Assembly (NCBI GenBank): GCA_902571915.1
Contig: CACGDY010000001.1
Coordinates: 248,001-312,000, forward strand
Source: an uncultured Pelagibacteraceae bacterium
Lineage (GTDB): Bacteria; Pseudomonadota; Alphaproteobacteria; Pelagibacterales; Pelagibacteraceae
Reading direction: 5' to 3'
Length of the DNA stretch: 64,000 nucleotides
Part shown: positions 21,294 through 23,039 of the stretch, one piece after another
Layout: every line of letters begins with the position of its first letter
Numbering within the stretch: the stretch's first letter is position 1
Made by a program: the position numbers and the translations under genes
Notes under the pieces: generated by a model
Seen by the model: the letters and a program-made list of their open reading frames with translations, nothing else
Database searches by the model: none
Told to the model about the DNA's origin: nothing

Positions 21294-23039
21294 ATGCTTA
21301 ATTCTGAAGATTTAATAAATAAAGTAAAAGATTATAACAAATTTCTAAACCCTGAAAAGCTAAATAAAGCTTATGAATTTGCTGTTAAAGCACATAGCAA
21401 CCAAAAGAGAGCTTCAGGTGACCCATACTCAGTGCATCCAATAGAAGTCGCAAATATTTTGACAGATTTAAAATTGGATAGTGCAACAATCACAACTGGT
21501 TTGTTACATGATACTATTGAAGATACCTATGCTACTTATGAATCCATTAAAGGAGAATTTGGTGAAGAGGTAGCAGATTTAGTTGATGGTGTCACAAAAA
21601 TTTCAGTTTTTGAAAACACCGCGACCACAAATTCAAAAGCAGAAAACTTTAGAAAACTTATTTTAGCTACTTCAAAAGATATAAGAGTTTTGTTAGTTAA
21701 AATTGCAGATCGTTTACATAATATGAGAACAATAAAAGCTATCACAAAAGAGAACAAGAGAAAAAGAATTGCACAAGAGACAATGGAAATTTATGCACCA
21801 TTGGCTGATAGAATGGGAATGCATCGAATTCGTGATGAACTAGAAGATTTATCTTTCGAGGTTTTGAATAATGATGCAAGAACATTAATTCAAAATAGAT
21901 TAGATGAAATCAAATCTGACAAAAAAGATATTTTCGAATCCCTTTCTAATGAAATGAACAATTTATTAAATGACAATAATATAAATTCTAAAATTTATGG
22001 ACGAGGTAAAACACCTTTTTCAATTTGGAGAAAAGTTCAAAAGAAAAGAGTTTCTCTTGAACAGATAACAGATATTATTGGATTTAGAATAATTTTAAGA
22101 AATATTGATGATTGTTACAAAACTTTAGGGATAATACATAAAGAATACAATTGTATACCTGGCAAATTTAAAGATTATATCTCTTCACCTAAAATTAATG
22201 GTTATAAATCAATTCATACCGCAGTTATTGGATCTAATAAAAAACCCGTAGAAATTCAAATTAGAACAACAGAGATGCATGATTTTGCTGAAAGAGGTAT
22301 TGCTTCACACTGGCAATATAAATCTTCTGAAAAATTTAATTCTTTAACTTGGAAAGAGTATGACTGGTTAAAAGATTTGGTAGAGATTATTGAAAAAAAT
22401 GAAAATCCTGAACATTCATATGAATATACAAAATTGCAAATGTTTCAAGAAAATGTATTTTGTTTTACACCAAAAGGATCCGTGATTAAATTACCAAAAG
22501 ATGCTACTCCCATTGATTTTGCATATGCCGTGCATACAAAAATTGGAAATACAGCTGTAGGATGTGAAATTAATGGAAACAAAAGTGAACTTCAAACAAT
22601 TCTAAGAAATGGTGATAGAGTAAAAATTATTACCTCTAAAAATCATTCACCTTCATTACACTGGATACCAACTACCAAAACAGGAAAAGCTAGGGCTGCT
22701 ATTAGACGTTATTGGCATGACAGAGGAGAAGTAAAAGAGAGAAGAACTAAAAAATATAATACTACTTTATGGATTTCTTTACCTGATAAACCAGGTCAAC
22801 TTGGCAATGTCAGTTCTTTAATTGGTAAACATAAATTGAATATTTCAAATCTTGTGATGGCAGGTAAAAATCCTGATTATATAAATTTTAAATTCCAATT
22901 AATAATTAGGGATTTAAAAAATTTTACTAATTTTATTGCAGAGCTTAAACAAAAAGGTATAAAATTTAAAATAATAAGACACGAAGATAAAAGAAATGCT
23001 TTCACACAAAAAATCCTTAGATATTTTAAAAAAAACTGA
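21294..23039 (+). CDS. (p)ppGpp synthetase/hydrolase, compact Rsh lacking the central C-terminal domains
   Basis: RelA/SpoT homologue controlling the stringent alarmone. It has an HD hydrolase domain (HPIEVANIL near residue 46, GLLHDTIEDT near 69), a synthetase domain (DIIGFRII, GYKSIHTAVIG and EIQIRTTEMHDFAE at roughly 245-330), a TGS domain (CFTPKGSVIKLPKDATPIDFAY) and an ACT domain (LPDKPGQLGNVSSLIG). Only 581 residues against about 700-750 for usual Rsh: TGS runs almost straight into ACT, so the helical and zinc-finger/conserved-cysteine segments are missing. An intact HD motif and synthetase motifs suggest a bifunctional enzyme. It overlaps pyrE by 44 bases. Confidence 0.94.
   Translation: MLNSEDLINKVKDYNKFLNPEKLNKAYEFAVKAHSNQKRASGDPYSVHPIEVANILTDLKLDSATITTGLLHDTIEDTYATYESIKGEFGEEVADLVDGVTKISVFENTATTNSKAENFRKLILATSKDIRVLLVKIADRLHNMRTIKAITKENKRKRIAQETMEIYAPLADRMGMHRIRDELEDLSFEVLNNDARTLIQNRLDEIKSDKKDIFESLSNEMNNLLNDNNINSKIYGRGKTPFSIWRKVQKKRVSLEQITDIIGFRIILRNIDDCYKTLGIIHKEYNCIPGKFKDYISSPKINGYKSIHTAVIGSNKKPVEIQIRTTEMHDFAERGIASHWQYKSSEKFNSLTWKEYDWLKDLVEIIEKNENPEHSYEYTKLQMFQENVFCFTPKGSVIKLPKDATPIDFAYAVHTKIGNTAVGCEINGNKSELQTILRNGDRVKIITSKNHSPSLHWIPTTKTGKARAAIRRYWHDRGEVKERRTKKYNTTLWISLPDKPGQLGNVSSLIGKHKLNISNLVMAGKNPDYINFKFQLIIRDLKNFTNFIAELKQKGIKFKIIRHEDKRNAFTQKILRYFKKN

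Follow-up and report, generated by a model that had tools for sequence, protein, structure and literature searches.

How does a bacterium adjust ppGpp (guanosine tetraphosphate) to starvation when the only synthetase gene found in its genome encodes a protein without the parts that anchor such enzymes to the ribosome? This question is raised by the rsh gene of the stretch analyzed here (64,000 nucleotides, called the window), which represents positions 248001-312000 of contig 1 in an assembly that is 57% complete and has Pelagibacteraceae (SAR11) as its closest named relatives. Few bacteria in the ocean are more abundant than SAR11, and their adjustment of growth to starvation is poorly known. 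Of the canonical six domains of long RSH proteins (HD-SYNTH-TGS-HEL-ZFD-ACT), HEL and ZFD are absent in Pelagibacteraceae, while TGS and ACT are present. According to the reading we favor, with a probability of roughly 0.6, the protein is a bifunctional Rel/SpoT enzyme whose ribosome-anchoring module was lost by one ancestral deletion and which was subsequently re-fitted; it would now be largely uncoupled from the ribosome and controlled via TGS and ACT.

The initial annotation had described a 581-residue Rsh with hydrolase, synthetase, TGS and ACT domains, which was confirmed by the open reading frame and by Pfam. By contrast, RelA_AH_RIS (PF19296) gave no Pfam match in the window Rsh even at E<=1. 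On the TIGR00691 profile, the protein covers columns 1-451 of 687 without net length change and ends just past TGS. The short form aligns with long alphaproteobacterial Rsh proteins through TGS and the next helix (GKARAAIRRYW) and then skips to ACT. From the IR of this helix to the PG turn of ACT, 28-30 residues were counted in 136 short proteins, compared to 168-173 in the sister family (f2; ten proteins) and 170-190 in the 25 Alphaproteobacteria from elsewhere in the class. The net loss of about 140-150 residues corresponds to the helical (AH/HEL) and zinc-finger (RIS/ZFD/CC) domains; in the long forms, the lost segment contains CC in 33 and CCxPxP in 31 of 35 proteins. Thus, the earlier statement that the segment between TGS and ACT measures about 30 instead of well over 100 residues agrees with the spacing, while the boundaries given for it (residues 465 and 495) hold only roughly, since the TGS profile ends at 447, ACT begins near 488 and the helical domain still has its first helix, which extends to about residue 476. 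It was also considered that the two domains might be present in divergent form. The protein leaves no space for them, the short forms have no cysteine in residues 470-489, and about 100 related genomes gave no match to PF19296. The loss of both domains, as had been claimed, is real, with Pfam, TIGR00691 and the spacing in agreement. The layout of the gene is as follows:

21294-23039, + strand: rsh, 581 amino acids, sole gene with a RelA_SpoT synthetase domain found in the genome
21369-21821, + strand: HD (ppGpp hydrolase) domain, residues 26-176, Pfam HD_4 (PF13328, E=5e-47)
21999-22331, + strand: SYNTH (ppGpp synthetase) domain, residues 236-346, Pfam RelA_SpoT (PF04607, E=2.8e-41)
22332-22457, + strand: Core, between SYNTH and TGS, residues 347-388, shifted compared to the long forms (for its role see PMC9974481)
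22458-22634, + strand: TGS domain, residues 389-447, Pfam TGS (PF02824, over cut-off)
22533-22535, + strand: H414, the TGS histidine, aligned to 6yxa and equivalent to B. subtilis Rel H420
22683-22721, + strand: residual helix, residues 464-476 (GKARAAIRRYW...), start of the helical domain, from the alignment and a helix in both predicted models
22722-22754, + strand: deletion junction, about 140-150 residues replaced by a variable linker of 11 residues (477-487)
22755-22979, + strand: ACT (RRM) domain, residues 488-562, beta-alpha-beta-beta-alpha-beta, from Pfam (ACT_4, 486-553; PF13291, over cut-off), model, fold and profile matches
22980-23036, + strand: basic C-terminal tail, residues 563-581, its last 14 codons within the pyrE frame

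To determine how widespread the deletion is, genomes were compared, many of which are incomplete. All 80 public Pelagibacteraceae loci kept for comparison encode exactly 581 amino acids, and every Pelagibacteraceae genus with an Rsh match has the short form, with full-length frames of about 570-600 residues, so that an assembly or frameshift artefact can be dismissed. The complete single-contig genomes G003, G017 and G009 also carry the deletion, and an ortholog is present in Candidatus Pelagibacter ubique (L105). The comparison with other SAR11 Rsh proteins, already envisaged in the initial annotation, therefore reveals a deletion common to all Pelagibacteraceae. One could imagine that a separate gene supplies the missing domains in trans. 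Such a gene was not found and its existence is most improbable, since PF19296 gave zero matches across about 100 Pelagibacteraceae genomes, most of them more than 90% complete, while the same search was positive in 10 control genomes and in 17 genomes of the order, all belonging to the sister family. One further genome of that family (G130) gave no Rsh match. Class-wide, 271 of 289 Alphaproteobacteria genomes matched PF19296; the 18 negative ones comprise four Pelagibacteraceae, 12 genomes without any Rsh match and two (G327 and G518) with fragments only. Among the class members sampled, Pelagibacteraceae are the only ones whose intact Rsh lacks the AH-RIS region. A short open reading frame of G284 was rejected as a further case because it stops near a contig end and retains the start of the helical domain. 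In a tree of the HD-to-TGS columns, for which the root was not inferred, the short forms make up one group with one state change (support 99). Since long forms occur in the sister family and elsewhere in the class, a single loss at the base of the Pelagibacteraceae is the economical reading. An identical, independent deletion was not found in other small alphaproteobacterial genomes. Three of these genomes have kept the helical domain, two of them (G394, L235; G374, L237) lacking the Rsh zinc finger and one (G308, L221) the zinc-finger cysteines. These partial losses are apparently independent.

Does the shortened protein still have what is needed to make and degrade ppGpp? The HD residues H48, H72, D73, E76, D77, D139 and N143 are invariant in short and long forms, and so are, in the 136 short proteins, the SYNTH residues R237, K239, D260, K293, D294, Y304, H308, E320, Q322 and R324. 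Among the synthetase residues checked, only K291 of the KxKD motif and G303 vary. KxKD is found in 129 of the 136 short forms, most long alphaproteobacterial forms having RxKD, by sequence a conservative change. The short Rsh falls with alphaproteobacterial Rsh in the tree, and pyrE lies directly downstream of rsh, an arrangement shared with the sister family and with one or more of the four further class members inspected. Judged from these sequence data, the HD and SYNTH domains, the tree position and the locus are those of a bifunctional Rel/SpoT protein. Exactly one synthetase domain was detected in 66 of 68 genomes and none in the remaining two, perhaps due to assembly gaps.

Alternatively, Rsh might chiefly be a ppGpp hydrolase, a SpoT-like housekeeping enzyme with weak synthetase, which would leave SAR11 little or no stringent response. 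This idea can draw on B. subtilis Rel, which without RRM and ZFD stays hydrolase-active and non-toxic (PMC7058999), on the plausibility of a compact SpoT-like state and on the fact that no second synthetase was found. The last point also cuts the other way, because a hydrolase-only Rsh would have no substrate if no other synthetase exists and would make little sense. Moreover, the synthetase residues are invariant or nearly so and the ratio of nonsynonymous to synonymous polymorphism (pN/pS) of SYNTH is 0.082, in contrast to the hydrolase-only SpoT of Moraxellaceae, in which the synthetase regions have diverged (PMC9974481). A mainly hydrolytic Rsh is thus improbable.

Apart from the deletion, change is concentrated in Core and ACT. 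Identity to other Alphaproteobacteria is nearly the same for short forms and long f2 forms in HD (0.64 and 0.65), SYNTH (0.58 and 0.58) and TGS (0.58 and 0.59), while it is lower in the short forms in Core (0.39 versus 0.48) and ACT (0.25 versus 0.40). Of 226 sites conserved in the long forms, 14 of 31 have changed in Core and ACT compared to 15 of 195 elsewhere (Fisher P=9e-7), a test covering one branch on which the sites are not independent events. On the other hand, pN/pS values among close relatives are 0.027 for Core, the most constrained region of the short Rsh, 0.066 for both ACT and HD, and 0.22 for the linker. Core and ACT have been rewritten compared to the long forms and are now strongly constrained, which argues for re-fitting and not for decay. 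In SpoT of A. baumannii, Core contacts ZFD and RRM/ACT and passes their state to the hydrolase (PMC9974481). Given these contacts, a Core and an ACT that are rewritten and then strongly held are what loss of ZFD would be expected to call for. The ACT is orthologous to that of the long forms (profile match, probability 99), albeit strongly diverged. A fold search with the short-form ACT found the ACT domain of C. tepidum Rel, while the ACT sequence alone gave no significant match against the PDB. For the R670 contact of E. coli RelA ACT, which might have served as a marker, no certain alignment column could be assigned, and it was left unused.

These values also bear on the notion that genome reduction has worn down the C-terminus by neutral decay, with ACT and tail as vestiges. 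The genomes are small, and the zinc finger or its cysteines have been lost in a few other small alphaproteobacterial genomes. Decay is nonetheless very improbable in view of the one junction fixed throughout the family, an ACT as constrained as the hydrolase domain, the still lower value of Core and the lack of broken copies among the full-length genes aligned.

The consequences for ribosome coupling can be assessed from E. coli RelA. In this protein, RIS (zinc finger), the major ribosome-binding domain, and ACT provide the anchor at bridge B1a, the AH core lies against the A/R tRNA and contacts its D stem, and ACT contacts the A-site finger and L16 (PMC4974054). Zinc-finger (ZFD) substitutions counter RelA toxicity, and ZFD mutations destabilize Rel on starved ribosomes (PMC7058999). 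Since the helical and zinc-finger domains anchor E. coli RelA and touch the A-site tRNA, the changed starvation sensing suggested in the initial annotation is a sound inference, and the deletion indicates that SAR11 probably set (p)ppGpp without the usual ribosome-based starvation test. With AH/RIS missing and only about 11 flexible residues in front of ACT, the protein seems unable to adopt the extended conformation of the ribosome-bound state.

It is conceivable, on the other hand, that the short Rsh is a streamlined protein which is still activated by the ribosome through the same mechanism, TGS, ACT and the residual helix, the counterpart of Linker Helix 1 in E. coli RelA (naming according to PMC4974054), binding A-site tRNA, A-site finger and L16. 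H414 is identical in all 136 short forms, and its equivalent in B. subtilis Rel, H420, touches the tRNA CCA end (PMC7058999). The residual helix has been kept, as has, under strong constraint, an ACT of the kind that in E. coli itself touches the ribosome (PMC4974054). The 23S A-site finger is of normal length, measuring 116 nucleotides in G003 and 116 in E. coli. Hence, a shortened finger matching the lost domain is ruled out and the ribosome keeps its side of the contact. What speaks against this alternative is that RIS as the main ribosome-binding domain is missing, as is the AH core with its D-stem contact (PMC4974054), that the 11-residue linker is very probably too short to span the ribosome sites of TGS and ACT, and that ACT has diverged far beyond that of the sister family. 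We therefore regard a ribosome-activated short Rsh as unlikely.

The normal A-site finger also weighs against our own reading, as do several other points. The contacts of TGS with tRNA and of ACT with A-site finger and L16 may suffice for weak ribosome binding, and such a weak link is possible because both domains have been kept with key residues. The C602A C603A zinc-finger mutant of B. subtilis still supports growth in minimal medium (PMC7058999). The AlphaFold2 structures are poor, probably because they were predicted from an alignment of close relatives only, with a predicted local distance difference test (pLDDT) score of 52 and 60, so that packing of TGS against ACT was not modelled and only ACT (pLDDT about 80) was used. 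Finally, there are the limits of the changed-site test mentioned above.

If the short Rsh is indeed largely uncoupled from the ribosome, the following course of events may be envisaged. After one internal deletion in the ancestor of the Pelagibacteraceae had removed the helical-domain core and the zinc finger, the protein was re-fitted with ACT directly behind TGS. It would no longer dock productively on starved ribosomes, and the balance of hydrolase and synthetase would be set by intramolecular contacts between TGS, Core and ACT, like in the compact SpoT state. Free deacylated tRNA or acyl carrier protein might act through TGS, and ACT might respond to a small metabolite, perhaps an amino acid. 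The outcome would be a basal ppGpp level determined by growth rate or metabolites and not a RelA-like ribosomal alarm. Deacylated tRNA inhibits the hydrolase of E. coli SpoT, and in A. baumannii SpoT, the C-terminal domain controls hydrolysis via Core without ribosomes (PMC9974481). The ACT of R. capsulatus Rel has been reported to bind branched-chain amino acids, which raises hydrolysis, while no such effect was seen with B. subtilis Rel (PMC7058999). Short and long ACT domains share an invariant asparagine, N516, a possible counterpart of the R. capsulatus ligand residue N651. Another known input is EIIA-Ntr, which inhibits the SpoT hydrolase in Caulobacter (PMC4848567). EIIA-Ntr (PtsN; PF00359, PTS_EIIA_2) exceeded the cut-off in none of 58 genomes of the order, while the Caulobacter control was positive. 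Because it remained below the cut-off also in three sister-family genomes, its loss may predate the rsh deletion. With both AH/RIS and EIIA-Ntr absent, TGS and ACT are the known inputs left. A more specific proposal, in which the sole SAR11 Rsh would be a ribosome-free alarmone homeostat with a TGS reading free deacylated tRNA or acyl carrier protein, a rewritten ACT reading a metabolite and neither ribosomal nor nitrogen phosphotransferase input, is put forward tentatively, at somewhat less than even odds.

The architecture itself has a published precedent. In SpoT of Haemophilus ducreyi and Actinobacillus pleuropneumoniae, an internal deletion has likewise removed the helical and CC domains while ACT was kept (Atkinson et al. 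2011, PMC3153485). There, however, it is a rare exception in two species of Pasteurellaceae, whereas in SAR11 it extends to a whole free-living alphaproteobacterial family and affects the only synthetase found. RshC and Salinispora RshA are naturally truncated long RSHs as well, but Salinispora has RshA forms without CC and ACT, the latter being retained in SAR11 (PMC3153485). With the Caulobacter-type bifunctional Rel/SpoT, SAR11 Rsh shares orthology (by sequence and tree), the order HD-SYNTH-TGS-ACT, active-site residues and the TGS histidine; it differs in lacking helical core and zinc finger, and in that EIIA-Ntr was not found in the genomes. The ribosome-independent control of A. baumannii SpoT via Core, TGS and ACT (PDB 7qpr, PMC9974481) is the model proposed for the SAR11 protein, even though this SpoT has kept HEL and ZFD and lost synthetase activity and the TGS histidine, SAR11 Rsh being, to judge by its sequence, the opposite in all three respects. 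The text of PMC3153485 names neither SAR11 nor Pelagibacter, and the open-access literature searched contained nothing on SAR11 Rsh and no article joining Pelagibacter, RSH and ppGpp. What is new relative to this literature is that the deletion is fixed throughout a family of free-living marine bacteria, that it affects the sole synthetase gene found, and that Core and ACT were re-fitted. A family whose sole alarmone enzyme is devoid of the ribosome anchor provides a natural experiment in which basal ppGpp control is set apart from the ribosomal alarm, and a small protein on which control by TGS and ACT can be studied without HEL and ZFD. The missing anchor also cautions against deducing a RelA-style response from the annotation 'relA/spoT' in SAR11 genomes.

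Within the window, rsh is located between what we take to be folK-like and pyrE-like open reading frames. The end of rsh overlaps the start of pyrE by 44 nucleotides (22996-23039). An overlap of this length was found in 22 of 23 diverse Pelagibacteraceae genes, the exception (L136, genus g9) overlapping by 1 nucleotide. In the sister family and one other member of the class, pyrE starts between 4 nucleotides before and 8 nucleotides after the end of the rsh stop codon. Synonymous variation in rsh drops from about 0.54 to 0.11 within the overlap and is 0.045 just upstream of it. Because of the drop at the overlap, the basic C-terminal tail of Rsh is considered to be overprinted on pyrE.

As to the output of the alarmone, the loss of two RNA polymerase partners was considered and ruled out. 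DksA-type proteins are present in 54 of 58 genomes, and omega (rpoZ), encoded away from rsh, was found in 56 of 58 with its N-terminal MARVTVEDC kept. Since DksA-type proteins and an omega with the MAR start have been retained, RNA polymerase probably still has its ppGpp targets. The zinc finger of the DksA-type protein has a much lower score in one subset of the genus than in the rest of the family, and there it lies in a longer frame of about 172-205 amino acids (e.g. G003:C1:372457-372561). The Pelagibacteraceae form of omega, encoded at 142500-143300 of the source contig and hence outside the window, carries a long acidic C-terminal extension and comprises about 180 amino acids in total.
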